Source: Beggiatoa alba B18LD (GTDB lineage Bacteria > Pseudomonadota > Gammaproteobacteria > Beggiatoales > Beggiatoaceae). Taken from it: 64,000 nucleotides of DNA. Position numbers and translations under genes: made by a program. The notes beneath the pieces are model-generated. The model saw nothing but the letters and a program-made list of their open reading frames with translations, did not search any database and had not been told where the DNA came from. This document shows positions 41,601 to 46,150 of this stretch, one piece after another. Location of the stretch: assembly GCF_000245015.1 (NCBI RefSeq), contig NZ_JH600070.1, positions 2,746,079-2,810,078 of the forward strand, in the 5' to 3' direction. How positions within the stretch are numbered: position 1 is the stretch's first letter; every line of letters starts with the position of its first letter.

Positions 41601-42113
41601 AGGCTTATCTGGGTAACGACAACATCAACCCCATTGCCTCGCTGTCGTGCAACAGATAAACAAGTGATAGGCACATTATTAGACGCTTTACGCCACTACG
41701 CACAAGCGGGAGAAAATCCATTATTATCAACTGTTAATCGCGTTTTAGTTTTAGGTGGTGCGGATTTATTGCACAGCATACAAAATGCCCGCTGTGGTGA
41801 ATTACATGATTATTTCGCGCCGAATACGACTTTTACAGGTGCGGTGTACAGCACAATGCAATGTATGCTGAAAGGCGTTTGTGCACAGTGTTTACAATGG
41901 CAAATAGACCCAACGACAGGACAACGTACGAAAGCCGTTTTCGCCTGCTCGTGGCAAGAACAACCCTTAGAATGGATTGATATTGATAATTTAACCGCCC
42001 GTTTACAACAAAATACGGTACAGGAATATTTAAGTCAGCAGTGGCTGGGGTATTTGTGGGGGAGTAATAATAATCTCAATATTTTGTCTGATGGGACTGA
42101 TAGATTTATTTAA
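38628..42113 (+). CDS. Large iron-sulfur flavoprotein: GltD-like FAD module fused to PyrK-like reductase module
   Basis: A 1161-residue cytoplasmic protein. Residues 1-240 are unrecognised. Cysteines CVYC (245-248) and C256, GCPLG near 284, and the CNDCMKGC cluster near 320 resemble the Fe-S region of GltD/DPYD proteins. Two dinucleotide folds follow: VLIAGQGPAGFTLA near 382 (FAD) and VVIGGGLTGADTA near 552 (NAD(P)H). From about 832 there is a ferredoxin-reductase-like domain (YRAGQFFRVQN) ending in CMLKGVCAQC near 1079, the [2Fe-2S] motif of dihydroorotate dehydrogenase electron-transfer subunits. The likely role is NAD(P)H-linked electron transfer, possibly bifurcating; substrate unknown. 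Similar very long proteins are annotated as FAD-dependent oxidoreductases. It shares the Fur-box region with fbpA. Confidence 0.82.
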   Translation: MSVTHSFHGFQFADLFRLETLYRFDQQFLDELAIQQPDLKADLLAYRQASRLFTPIEISTLLLACAPYLENFLARLFGIETALNGANQATLSHQPVFAFKKWFVQRRARRRLSKAEPLPAFSTLQAWLKDEIEKYQLNSLDIELATAQLGQRYLSDTVLYQAEIEQLTRWCLHGLREPEGQNFVKNWVSFQLPQQRNHAQLIQTIPIQHQGVSCLSSAKQHPREGFNLTDARYSARAVQSEVDYCVYCHDHDGDFCSKGFPEKKGEPLLKIDPLGVTLTGCPLGEKISEMHTLKREGQTIGALAMLMVDNPFCPATGHRICNDCMKGCIYQKQDPVDIPQIETRILTDVLALPYGVEIYDLLTRWNPLRQKQYLPRNYNGLKVLIAGQGPAGFTLAHHLLMEGFAVVGVDGLKIEPLPTEYLTQPIRDYAQLQEPLAERIMLGFGGVAEYGITVRWDKNFLKLIYLSLSRRSHYQVFGSVRFGGTLTIEEAWALGFDHLAIAVGAGLPQALNIPNSLAVGMRQANDFLMALQLTGAGKRDSLANLQIRLPAVVIGGGLTGADTATEVQAYYLLQIEKILSRYEILSTQLGENELRQGLKTTDLAILDEFLSHARAVRAEKARAQAENTAPNLRDLLHQWGGVTIAYRRRLQDSPAYIRNHEELDKALAEGIFYLENAEPIDAELDTAGHLKALHFQRNGERLTLPARAAFIATGARPNVAYAFEHQGSLERDGFQYRLYQQNTQGFQVANSQPSHCKTAEFGAFTSYQTDGHRVSLVGDTHPVFHGSVVKAIASAQKIYPHIVANFAERVHDKGDEQAYQTFRTHLQTQLHSYVVKTQRRSPHAVALTVHAPLAARRYRAGQFFRVQNYESLAPVIAGVRLHSEALALFALTVDADKGEITFLIEETGTSSRLIAQTPVGQALAVMGPTGVRTHIGTGNETVLLLAEQAGIVNACAVGQALRQAGNRVICLVAVTDANDIACQTELETASDRLIWVTTTSTPLPRCRATDKQVIGTLLDALRHYAQAGENPLLSTVNRVLVLGGADLLHSIQNARCGELHDYFAPNTTFTGAVYSTMQCMLKGVCAQCLQWQIDPTTGQRTKAVFACSWQEQPLEWIDIDNLTARLQQNTVQEYLSQQWLGYLWGSNNNLNILSDGTDRFI

Positions 42114-42996
42114 TCAGCGATTTATTCGTTTGTTGGTTAAATTTGTCCCAAGGCAAAGATTCAAAAAATTGAGTGACTTTCTCATATGTTGGTTCAAAGG
42201 CTGGGAGAGATTCAACTGTTGTGGTTAAGTCTTGATATCTCTCACCAGAACGCCGTTTAACTTCAGGGTCACGCATTCCATTTTGATGCAGTAACGGCTC
42301 TAAATTTTTACCAATACTTTTTTTATGTAAAGTGTCGAGTATTTTATACTTCATATCAGTATAAACGTCTTGAAAATTATCAATTAAAAAATTTAAATCA
42401 TAAATATCTTGTTCTCGATTTCTTTTTCTAATTTTTTGTTGTAAAACAGAACGAAACTTTTCCGCAATAACATCTATGAGTGCATATACTTGTATGGTTG
42501 TTTCACTATCTATATAAATAGAATCAATGTTATAACAAGGTTCATTTAAGCTGTAATCAATTTGTATAATGGTAGAAAAGGGTTTCTCTAATTGTTTTAA
42601 GTTCATCCCATTTTTATACGCATAACCAATTTTTATCACAATGGTTGGAAATGTTCCTATAGCGTTTGGCTTTATCTCATGAGATTGACATTTGCATTTC
42701 ATGCCATAATTCACTTCAGTTTCAGCAATATCCATTGCATCATTAAAGGTTTGTAAAAAAGTTGCTACATCAATATCCGCTAATTTTTGCCCTGTAGAAA
42801 AATCTATATCTTTTGTATAGCGGTCATTTTGATAGAAAATCCCTAACAACATTCCTCCTTTCATAATCATAAAAGGACGTAATGTTTCTGTATTGGAGAT
42901 AGCTTTTAAAATAATATGAATAGCTTGCCTAAATGGTAATTGTGCTTGCGGAGATGATGAAACCCATTGTTCAATATTTTGATGTGTTAGATACAT
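42106..42996 (-). CDS. AbiEii-like nucleotidyltransferase toxin (type IV TA)
   Basis: A 296-residue protein of the AbiEii/AbiGii family (DUF1814, DNA polymerase beta-like nucleotidyltransferase). MKGGMLLGIFY near residue 44 and RYTKDIDFSTG near residue 58 match the family's G-G-x-L and T-x-DID-F motifs (catalytic acidic pair), and a KIGY...QIDYS segment supplies the third acidic residue. AbiEii toxins modify RNA or tRNA ends and cause growth arrest or phage abortive infection. ATG 42996 is chosen over TTG 43008. The 5' end overlaps the antitoxin gene by 26 bp and the 3' end overlaps the convergent flavoprotein gene by 8 bp. Confidence 0.87.
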   Translation of the reverse strand: MYLTHQNIEQWVSSSPQAQLPFRQAIHIILKAISNTETLRPFMIMKGGMLLGIFYQNDRYTKDIDFSTGQKLADIDVATFLQTFNDAMDIAETEVNYGMKCKCQSHEIKPNAIGTFPTIVIKIGYAYKNGMNLKQLEKPFSTIIQIDYSLNEPCYNIDSIYIDSETTIQVYALIDVIAEKFRSVLQQKIRKRNREQDIYDLNFLIDNFQDVYTDMKYKILDTLHKKSIGKNLEPLLHQNGMRDPEVKRRSGERYQDLTTTVESLPAFEPTYEKVTQFFESLPWDKFNQQTNKSLIK

Positions 42997-43876
42997 AACG
43001 CTGAGCAAATTCTACATTGATGGATAAAGACCAATCTTCGTCATAAATTGGAGAAAATTCATGTAGGTGGCTCAATTTTTTAGAGCTACCGCGTTCATTT
43101 TTCGCCTCTTTTTGCCATGTTGTTATCTGTTCATGTTGTACCCCAAGCATTTTGTCTAATACAAAACCCACTCGCGCAATATCAATTTTTTTGTTTTGTG
43201 GATTTTTTAGCGCGGTAATAATTTGTTTTGCATATTTTTTTCCATGTTCTAAATAAACCTCTAAAACATGTTCCTCCCCGCCACATAATTCAGGTTTTCT
43301 TAGCATATCGATAAATGTTTTACCGATTGAACTAACTCGGATAGGCGTGTTCTTTATTTGGACAGGCTCAATAATGTTTGACTCATGCGCTATAATCACT
43401 TGCTCTTGATTGATTATCTGGGTTTTTGTAAGTGGATATTTAGGGATGAAATTTGAAGGGATTGTCGTGTCATTTGGTAAACGTGTTTTTATGTCTCTCA
43501 GCGCATTGTCACGCCATATTTTTTGATTACAAACGGTAAATATAATTTCTCTAGGAATTTTATCTGTCAATTCATACCATTCCATTGCACTAATATATGA
43601 AAGATATCCATAAGGATATAAGCAGCAAATAATTTCTTTTGTACTGTATGTTGGTTTACCTGCTATTAGATAGTAAATATGTTTTTCTGGTTCACCTCTT
43701 TCATGCAAGATACCGATATTTAGTAATTTATTTACAACATCCGCGTAATTTATTTTTTCAGGAGTAAAAGAATAAATTTGCTCATAAAGACGCGCTTTTG
43801 TTATTACAGAGAAAGGATATTCATTTAATATCCAGTAGATTATTTTTTCTTTTATGTTATTATGCTTAGCGTTCAT
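42971..43876 (-). CDS. AbiEi-like antitoxin/transcriptional regulator
   Basis: A 301-residue protein upstream of, and overlapping, the AbiEii-like toxin. The N-terminal 70 residues look like a winged helix (IKEKIIYWILNEYPFSVITK... VVNKLLNIGILHERG), as in AbiEi antitoxins, followed by the family's YGYLSYISAMEWYELTD block (residues about 88-104) and a C-terminal domain rich in basic residues. Known AbiEi proteins bind inverted repeats in their own promoter and repress it; here a perfect palindrome starts 6 bp upstream of the start codon and overlaps the -10 box. Confidence 0.82.
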   Translation of the reverse strand: MNAKHNNIKEKIIYWILNEYPFSVITKARLYEQIYSFTPEKINYADVVNKLLNIGILHERGEPEKHIYYLIAGKPTYSTKEIICCLYPYGYLSYISAMEWYELTDKIPREIIFTVCNQKIWRDNALRDIKTRLPNDTTIPSNFIPKYPLTKTQIINQEQVIIAHESNIIEPVQIKNTPIRVSSIGKTFIDMLRKPELCGGEEHVLEVYLEHGKKYAKQIITALKNPQNKKIDIARVGFVLDKMLGVQHEQITTWQKEAKNERGSSKKLSHLHEFSPIYDEDWSLSINVEFAQRYVSNTSKY

Positions 43877-43881
43877 TTGTT

Positions 43882-43926
43882 AATTATTTACATATAATGT
43901 CCTTAGGACATTATATGTAAATAATT
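43882..43926. promoter_or_regulatory. 45-nt perfect palindrome upstream of AbiEi (putative operator 1)
   Basis: Two 22-bp arms around one central T; the core reads AATGTCC-T-... that is, AATGTCCTTAGGACATT. It covers the -10 element of the antitoxin promoter and ends 6 bp before the antitoxin start codon. It shares its centre TCCTTAGGA with the palindrome at 43987. Confidence 0.8.
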
Positions 43927-43939
43927 TTTACAGTGTCAA
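43910..43939 (-). promoter_or_regulatory. Consensus sigma-70 promoter for AbiEi-AbiEii
   Basis: On the minus strand TTGACA (43934-43939) and TATAAT (43910-43915) are exact matches to the consensus, with an 18-bp spacer. The -10 hexamer lies inside operator palindrome 1, so binding there would block RNA polymerase. Confidence 0.8.
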
Positions 43940-43965
43940 TAGTTCTATTATTATTTATTAGGTAG

Positions 43966-43994
43966 TTGACAAGATTTACCTTTAAATTTAAGAT
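43966..43994 (+). promoter_or_regulatory. Candidate promoter of the dioxygenase-family gene
   Basis: TTGACA at 43966-43971, 17-bp spacer, TAAGAT at 43989-43994 (4 of 6). The -10 element falls inside palindrome 2, mirroring the arrangement of the divergent promoter. Confidence 0.6.
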
Positions 43995-44017
43995 AAATCC
44001 TTAGGATTTATCTTAAA
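43987..44017. promoter_or_regulatory. 31-nt perfect palindrome upstream of dioxygenase gene (putative operator 2)
   Basis: Two 15-bp arms around one central T; the core is AAATCCTTAGGATTT, with the same TCCTTAGGA centre as operator 1 and a centre-to-centre distance of 98 bp. It ends 11 bp before the start codon of the plus-strand gene. Confidence 0.75.
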
Positions 44018-44028
44018 AAATAAAAACT

Positions 44029-44706
44029 ATGTTAAAAACCACCCTAACCAATGAAGGCTTTGCACTTATCCCGCAAATTTTTTCTGCACAAACTTGCACA
44101 GAACTGTTGGCGCAGATTCCTGCCATACAAGCGACTTCCGCAGGGACGCGCTCCTTGCTCTCTTTCGCATGGTGTGCCGATATGGTACAACAGTTAAGGG
44201 AATATCTGAAGGAAAAACAATTAATTGATTCGGGTGCCGTCGCAATACAATGTACTTATTTTGAAAAATCACTTGCCCGTAATTGGTTAATTGCGTTTCA
44301 TCAAGATTTAAGCGTTCCTGTTGTCAAACGGAGTTCACATCTTGCATTACAAGGGTGGTCAGAAAAAGAAGGACGGCTTTTTGTGCAAGCTCCTTGTGAG
44401 TTATTGGCGCAATTATTAGCGGTTCGTGTACATCTTGACCCTTGCACTGTGGCAGATGGTGCATTGCGGGTTATTCCACGCTCGCATACGCAAGGACGGA
44501 TTCCTTTACAATCACTTGCAACACATCGCCAGACCTTACCTGAGCCTGTGTTATGCCCTGCTGAACAGGGTACAGTTTTGTTAATGCGTCCGTTATTACT
44601 TCATGCGTCTTCAAAATCGACAGGGCAGGGTTTACGGCGGGTTTTACATTTTTTATTCGCGCCACGTCAGCCTGAATATGGGTTGCAGTGGCGGGAATGG
44701 GTGTGA
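44029..44706 (+). CDS. Phytanoyl-CoA dioxygenase-family protein
   Basis: A 225-residue Fe(II)/2-oxoglutarate-dependent oxygenase of the PhyH type. The HQD triad part (IAFHQDLSVPV near residue 87) and the distal His (LLLHASSKS near residue 186), followed by an Arg-containing RRVLHFLFAP strand, complete the metal and 2-oxoglutarate site. Substrate unknown. It is divergent from the AbiE pair and seems to share its control region. No Shine-Dalgarno sequence is visible. Confidence 0.8.
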   Translation: MLKTTLTNEGFALIPQIFSAQTCTELLAQIPAIQATSAGTRSLLSFAWCADMVQQLREYLKEKQLIDSGAVAIQCTYFEKSLARNWLIAFHQDLSVPVVKRSSHLALQGWSEKEGRLFVQAPCELLAQLLAVRVHLDPCTVADGALRVIPRSHTQGRIPLQSLATHRQTLPEPVLCPAEQGTVLLMRPLLLHASSKSTGQGLRRVLHFLFAPRQPEYGLQWREWV

Positions 44707-46117: not shown

Positions 46118-46150
46118 AGGACTGGTAGTCCTCACAGGACTGCCAGTCCT
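46118..46150. terminator. 15-bp hairpin between nadA and the Wzt-like gene
   Basis: AGGACTGGTAGTCCT and AGGACTGCCAGTCCT pair around a CAC spacer with a single mismatch; each arm is itself made of AGGACT/AGTCCT halves. It lies between convergent stop codons, so it may terminate both, but its tandem make-up also suits a dispersed repeat element. Confidence 0.6.

Follow-up and report, generated by a model that had tools for sequence, protein, structure and literature searches.

Two perfect palindromes upstream of an abiEi-abiEii gene pair in Beggiatoa alba B18LD belong to the AbiE pair, not to the dioxygenase gene on their other side. Judging from compensatory changes in the arms of such palindromes in other bacteria, evolution appears to keep their self-pairing with Watson-Crick (DNA) strictness. 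We give a probability of roughly 0.6 to the reading that they constitute an autoregulatory AbiE operator whose functional form would be a DNA hairpin or cruciform, which AbiEi would read or stabilise and in this way shut the promoter.

The AbiE pair and its control region in Beggiatoa alba

The features of the region are listed in Table 1, with positions counted along the window, the whole 64,000-nucleotide stretch of DNA that was analysed.

Table 1. Genes, palindromes and predicted promoter elements of the AbiE region in the window
Feature	Position	Strand	Evidence or remark
abiEii toxin gene, 300 aa counted from its listed TTG start	42106-43008	-	PF08843 E 4.4e-24; PADLOC PDLC02306 E 4.2e-100
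abiEi antitoxin gene, 301 aa	42971-43876	-	PADLOC PDLC02237 E 9.8e-84; AlphaFold2 model; PDB matches 6Y8Q, 1ZEL
Palindrome 1, proximal, perfect	43882-43926	none	22+1+22, unpaired centre base 43904; covers -10 and predicted start of abiE promoter
Predicted -10 TATAAT, abiE promoter, within palindrome 1	43910-43915	-	consensus match
Predicted -35 TTGACA, abiE promoter	43934-43939	-	consensus match
Predicted -35 TTGACA, outward promoter	43966-43971	+	consensus match; orientation recurs in relatives
Palindrome 2, distal, perfect	43987-44017	none	15+1+15, centre 44002; covers -10 and predicted start of outward promoter
Predicted -10 TAAGAT, outward promoter, within palindrome 2	43989-43994	+	consensus match
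PhyH-family dioxygenase gene	44029-44706	+	PF05721 E 3.4e-17; neighbour, outside the conserved unit

The two abiE genes overlap by 38 nt on the same strand. AbiEi matched no Pfam or NCBIfam family, and a sequence search of the PDB gave a single match that was not meaningful (E 0.27). An AlphaFold2 model built without the first residue had a pLDDT of 91.8, and its top Foldseek matches were 6Y8Q, the AbiEi of S. agalactiae (E 5.3e-6), and 1ZEL, which is Rv2827c (E 8.3e-6), with TM-scores of 0.38-0.54. PADLOC, the model and Foldseek together give the protein an N-terminal winged helix and a C-terminal antitoxin domain, as in AbiEi, while the PF08843 domain identifies AbiEii as a nucleotidyltransferase toxin. 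The proposal in an earlier note on this DNA that the genes form an AbiE-like pair was borne out, by PF08843 and PADLOC for AbiEii and by PADLOC and fold for AbiEi. Across 94 AbiEi loci, a tblastn search found an AbiEii homologue in 86, and the bicistronic abiEi-abiEii arrangement holds at the level of gene order. A third gene sits immediately after abiEi-abiEii on small plasmids of E. coli and Citrobacter (L129, 1772-4228; L130, 360-2812), where its annotation is that of a PP2C-type protein phosphatase. Control of related nucleotidyltransferase toxins by auto-phosphorylation is a topic of PMC11375011, as far as the available text of that paper goes.

The two perfect palindromes, of 45 and 31 nt, were found exactly where the earlier note had placed them. 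Their centres are 98 bp apart and have TCCTTAGGA in common, and they are the two longest perfect inverted repeats in the 64 kb (loops of 0-8 nt), the next having 13-nt arms and a 5-nt loop. In the whole Beggiatoa genome TCCTNAGGA occurs at 17 sites, compared with 6 for the reversed control, and among the 15 sites fetched only palindromes 1 and 2 have arms longer than 7 nt. The core contains CCTNAGG, the recognition site of Bsu36I-type restriction enzymes. Another inverted-repeat element, AGGACTGGNAGTCCTCACAGGACTGCCAGTCCT, lies at 46118-46150 of the window, after nadA, the gene that follows the PhyH gene; the genome holds at least one further copy of it (L005, 2968-3000). No known RNA family was detected in the window at gathering thresholds.

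The predicted abiE-side promoter is an exact TTGACA-18-TATAAT (43939 to 43910, minus strand), and the predicted outward promoter, in front of the PhyH gene, is a 10-of-12 match of the form TTGACA-17-TAAGAT (43966-43994, plus strand). Both predicted -35 boxes lie between the palindromes and one -10 lies inside each palindrome. The 501-bp region holds 6 promoter consensus matches, compared with 2.4 ± 1.5 in shuffles. Provided that initiation is normal, transcription is predicted to start near the centre of each palindrome. The earlier claim of divergent promoters, each with its -10 covered by a palindrome, thus stands at the level of consensus matches, and the same geometry recurs in relatives.

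Palindromes and promoter-like signals at AbiEi loci of other bacteria

Sequence comparison established the occurrence, position, core, covariation and promoter-like orientation of the palindromes beyond Beggiatoa. Relatives were found by AbiEi protein search alone of genome contigs, and the best 80 of 91 loci were taken; the record titles of the AbiEi loci name Gamma-, Beta- and Alphaproteobacteria, Verrucomicrobia, Cyanobacteria, Desulfobacterota, Nitrospira and Omnitrophota. Within 700 nt upstream of AbiEi, 78 of these best 80 loci carry one to three odd palindromes centred on TCCTNAGGA, so the palindrome that the earlier note had suggested seeking in other genomes is indeed found there. The two misses are L045, which has only 3 nt of upstream sequence, and L058, which on rechecking had no palindromes. 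Palindromes were also present at all six AbiEi loci, in five genomes, from a draw of 369 genomes of the class (three of the six, L031, L075 and L110, were already in the protein-search set), and at all eight plasmid AbiEi loci examined. The centre TCCTNAGGA is invariant in the subfamily and is usually GTCCTNAGGAC. Two upstream palindromes lack the core (L032 at -509 and L091 at -269), and the longest arms, 32-34 nt, occur in the Pseudanabaena loci L038, L040 and L042, where the centre is ATCCTNAGGAT. Upstream of abiEi on the Klebsiella plasmid L142 the spacer between the palindromes is rearranged and both palindromes are intact.

Adding the Beggiatoa locus and three further loci to the 80 gave a set of 84, with 139 core sites between -900 and +60. 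Arms of at least 9 nt were present at 136 of these (82 loci) and arms of 4-5 nt at the other three; with so few short arms, eroded palindromes are not being hidden by the filter of at least 9 nt that was applied to the sets for position, pairing and promoter orientation. One palindrome was present in 31 of the 82 loci, two in 48 and three in 3, so that 51 of the 84 loci, Beggiatoa included, have at least two; within loci the centres are 81-185 bp apart. Among 135 palindromes with arms of at least 10 nt, arm length has its mode at 23 (42 palindromes), drops at 24 (8 palindromes) and lies within 18-26 nt in 128. Past the first mismatch, pairing falls to 31%. In a control AbiEi family the longest arm within 360 bp had a median of 7 (21 loci, 9 of 30 having been skipped as too short, with gene starts set mechanically), compared with 22 for the 91 loci of the present type, whose lowest values were 7 and 8.

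A genome-wide regulon of the palindrome and a phage-borne copy of the system were also considered. The core GTCCTNAGGAC was located 26 times across ten other whole genomes: 19 of these sites are abiE palindromes, and arms at the remaining 7 are 5-7 nt long. Long-armed cores are thus confined to abiE in these genomes, as they are among the 15 core sites fetched from Beggiatoa alba, and a regulon was rejected. A phage-borne copy was rejected because no AbiEi relative passed in the viral search. Three patterns run on viral contigs gave 69 core sites with at least 7 paired bases, with arms of at least 18 nt only in L154 (5471-5509, arms 19) and L161 (213-249, arms 18). These two viral palindromes are centred on GTCCTTAGGAC and had no AbiEi match in the fetched stretch; that of L154 lies between open frames resembling structural genes. 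They are possibly promoters, terminators or decoys.

The promoter-like signals of the relatives have the orientation seen in Beggiatoa. With a TTGACA-like -35 defined as at least 5 of 6 matches 31-40 nt from the centre, and near-identical loci counted apart, loci with at least two palindromes had a -35 directed towards abiE at 43 of 58 proximal palindromes (4 of 58 in the opposite direction) and one directed away from abiE at 31 of 61 distal palindromes (9 of 61 opposite). Single palindromes behaved as proximal ones do, with 23 of 32 towards abiE and 4 of 32 opposite. A looser scan (34-40 nt, 4 of 6) gave 65% towards and 43% away for proximal palindromes, and 31% towards and 80% away for distal ones. 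A -10-like pattern occupies positions -13 to -8 of the arms and is clearest in the distal palindromes (T 68%, A 77%, mixed, A 53%, A 57%, T 85%).

The earlier note had gone further and suggested that the same regulator controls the dioxygenase gene, hinting at a three-gene defence or stress module. That AbiEi co-regulates the PhyH dioxygenase as such a unit is now very improbable. Palindrome 2 does cover the -10 of the promoter predicted in front of the PhyH gene, whose ATG is 27 bp from the palindrome centre. Yet no PhyH homologue was found by tblastn at any of 94 AbiEi loci (91 distinct) in the fetched flanks, which reached up to 4 kb per locus and were shorter on some contigs; the abiE-dioxygenase pairing that was sought in other genomes is therefore missing from these loci, and the idea of a conserved module is contradicted by what has been seen so far. 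Moreover, the PhyH orthologues of a congener (60%) and of another family member (56-57%) are located elsewhere, among different neighbours, with no palindromes in their 1.5-kb flanks, and across the 58 loci with at least two palindromes no gene is consistently common to the outward promoter. This AbiEi is present in one of 42 family genomes, its own, the other 41 having been searched without a match, so that the AbiE module of the window was probably acquired. An empty-site comparison with the congener was uninformative because the flanking genes are scattered there. On these grounds PhyH was rejected as part of the module: palindrome 2 belongs to the abiE control region, and the PhyH gene is a bystander that simply happens to lie 3' of the outward promoter. 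Local co-control of the PhyH gene by the outward promoter may occur in Beggiatoa alba.

Covariation of the palindrome arms

Covariation, by which functional RNA structures are normally recognised, was scored here in promoter DNA over 19 pairs and the centre, using 69 of 78 loci (the 9 omitted repeat the arm of another locus, and none was lost to the arm filter). The 1311 pair cells of these 69 distinct proximal palindromes, 99.8% of which are paired, contain 516 two-sided changes, no one-sided changes, no G-U and 3 non-pairs, and 13 of the 19 arm positions show every one of the four Watson-Crick pairs. The covariation score was 0.979, compared with 0.169 ± 0.011 in shuffles, none of 500 shuffles reaching 0.979; sliding the partners lowered it to 0.083-0.167. 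Compensatory change of the kind that marks a selected secondary structure thus exceeds both the shuffled and the slid controls. In the larger set of 180 palindromes from 105 loci, which includes near-identical alleles, mismatches affect 13 of the 3240 pairs at positions 1-18 and fall entirely within 6 palindromes whose arms are shorter than 18 nt.

The symmetry might have an ordinary cause. AbiEi monomers could read B-form arms of about 23 bp in a duplex operator, the symmetry being kept by a mutational process, such as template switching or hairpin-templated correction that copies one arm onto the other, with no structural need. The 23-bp repeats of known AbiEi operators equal the modal arm length here and the arms do change in concert, as this alternative predicts. 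However, a protein that reads duplex DNA should keep the outer arms similar within a locus, and they are unlike: over positions 14-23, identity was 0.282 within loci (56 comparisons), 0.268 between loci and 0.254 expected from composition. Reading of B-form half-sites does not explain unrelated but perfectly symmetric outer arms beside one antitoxin gene, and half-site sequence specificity was rejected as the cause of the symmetry, the outer arms being no more alike within than between loci. The control AbiEi family also argues against it, since it lacks long perfect repeats.

The mutational part of the alternative was confronted with short-term evolution. Free concerted drift predicts variation in the arms like that in the spacer, whereas nine Xanthomonas plasmid alleles show variation at 2 of 76 arm columns (inner 19 positions per arm) and at 32 of 85 spacer columns, and neutral concerted drift was rejected as the sole cause. 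The two variable arm columns are one concerted pair, and concerted changes were seen in other close pairs of loci (L101/L102, L097/L100 and L084/L086); a 1-nt insertion in one arm of L140, outside the counted columns, counts against strict pairing. Arms that hardly change over short times, yet over long times diverge freely by paired changes, are what one would expect if selection acts on pairing.

The centre base departs from this pattern. Both palindromes of the Xanthomonas alleles and both of the 4.7-kb enterobacterial plasmids are variable there, always as A versus T in the alleles read, near-identical plasmids included. Among 48 plasmid records that covered 80% or more of the query, the distal centre is A in 9 and T in 39, as deduced from how many places BLAST reported; 7 alleles were read directly. 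Exchange of the two hairpin strands would produce such A/T flips, a resemblance that also suits the mutational process of the duplex alternative. Against strand exchange, three close locus pairs differ by a transition at the centre (L062/L063, L109/L110 and L038/L042), and the flips could in part be assembly artefacts. Weighing these points, we regard a duplex operator with process-driven symmetry as unlikely, though not negligibly so. Two-sided changes only, unlike outer arms and short-term freezing of the arms together indicate that selection appears to act on self-pairing itself, a conclusion that we regard as nearly established.

A pairing stem could also act in RNA, if longer transcripts through the palindrome folded into a hairpin of about 20 bp that controls translation or decay of the abiE mRNA. 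The perfect covarying stem and conserved tip would suit such a hairpin, and the proximal arm can end near the start codon, as in L031 (centre at -25, 22-nt arms). An RNA stem, however, tolerates G-U, of which there is none in the 1311 cells, and the predicted -35 and -10 imply initiation close to the centre, which would leave the main transcript with a single arm. We therefore consider the RNA hairpin quite improbable. The pairing is likely to take place in DNA rather than in RNA, because wobble pairs are absent and the predicted start is near the centre.

Comparison with known operators and a proposed model

Nothing was found in the open-access literature on AbiE with a perfect palindrome or on AbiEi with a cruciform, and searches with the core strings gave no paper on these palindromes, judged by title and abstract. 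In the available text of PMC7725324 and PMC8436566, 'inverted repeat' and 'palindrom' are absent, as are 'palindrome' and 'perfect' from the main text of PMC7319586.

A close counterpart is the abiE promoter of S. agalactiae. As given in the accessible part of PMC3985639, AbiEi binds there to repeats with 23-bp arms, 4 mismatches and a 3-bp gap, of which the outer 11 bp, TGTTGCTTTTA, are perfect. This system resembles the present one in being a type IV pair with the same fold and with inverted repeats of about 23-bp arms over the promoter (PMC3985639 and PMC7319586, as available). In our loci the arms likewise have their mode at 23 (n=135) and cover the -10, the window's own arms being 22 and 15 nt, and the start mapped 26 bp before the ATG in the accessible account of S. 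agalactiae compares with 28 nt predicted here (25 to at least 60 in relatives). The two differ in which part is conserved: instead of a conserved outer repeat sequence, positions -14 to -23 are near random here and the centre is conserved. Unlike S. agalactiae as far as described in those sources, the present palindromes combine an invariant centre with free but perfectly paired outer arms and a 1-nt gap, and the loci carry one to three of them, 81-185 bp apart, with divergent promoter-like signals. The S. agalactiae operator, on the same partial account, works with imperfect repeats, so hairpins are not needed there.

Other systems have single features in common with this one. In the Rv2827c operator of M. 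tuberculosis an AbiEi-family antitoxin is likewise preceded by inverted repeats of 23 bp, arranged as two pairs with 4 bp between them; unlike here, the gap within a pair is 13 bp and the repeat consensus is common to PabiE (available text of PMC7319586). AbiEi of S. suis ICESsuHN105 binds two palindromic repeats, IR1 and IR2, of its own promoter, but it also binds oriT, and the available text of PMC11062541 describes no long self-pairing arms. The capsule locus of Porphyromonas gingivalis, studied with the HU protein PG0121, has a 77-bp inverted repeat at the 5' end of its operon and so resembles the present case in having a long inverted repeat, that position and a DNA-structure-binding protein; it is one locus with an HU protein and, in the part of PMC3969353 at hand, no co-varying repeat family. 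Arms of 23 bp and a location at the promoter are thus features of known AbiE operators as well, whereas perfect symmetry, invariant centre, free outer arms and the 1-nt gap are not, and the best reading of the Beggiatoa-type operator is as a variant of the known 23-bp AbiE repeats. Hairpins that form in promoter DNA do have a precedent. Phage N4 promoters work through supercoil-extruded DNA hairpins with short stems that are read by the phage RNA polymerase; unlike the palindromes described here, they are not autoregulatory operators with co-varying long stems.

In the model that we favour, the region would be the control region of an AbiE (type IV) operon in a subfamily whose operators are long perfect palindromes of free outer sequence and invariant centre. 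Two putative back-to-back promoters would have their -35 boxes between the palindromes, each palindrome lying over one -10 and predicted start, and AbiEi would repress both, by analogy with S. agalactiae. The operator would be active when paired within a strand, folded into a DNA hairpin or cruciform that has a conserved tip and a length of about 20-23 bp. AbiEi, supercoiling or both would stabilise the extruded form, and extrusion would remove the -10 and the start from the duplex and so turn the promoter off; extrusion and AbiEi binding are the steps that we infer from the sequence patterns. Single-strand DNA folding of four examples gave the full hairpin, at -10.3 to -22.8 kcal/mol (z -6.0 to -11.8), which speaks to capability only. 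Several observations weigh against the model. The arms of the window's distal palindrome are only 15 nt long, each palindrome of L065 has an internal mismatch, 31 of 82 loci have a single palindrome, and the inner arm positions show partial conservation, as a -10.

A broader claim, which we advance tentatively and at somewhat less than even odds, is that these are toxin-antitoxin promoters spanning phyla and run by a DNA fold, a hairpin or cruciform of set length near 20-23 bp with fixed tip GTCCTNAGGAC and a free stem, the structure of which AbiEi would read, so that supercoiling, replication stress and the single-stranded DNA of invaders would be coupled to expression. If this is true, phage or plasmid single-stranded DNA, replication stress and supercoiling would act directly on toxin-antitoxin expression. 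Covariation-type evidence is met here in promoter DNA, Watson-Crick strict, in several phyla and on plasmids. The palindrome system is present on a 4.7-kb plasmid of E. coli and, should the hairpin prove to be the working form, would offer a simple genetic system for cruciform gene regulation in living cells and a handle on how type IV toxin-antitoxin systems are triggered.
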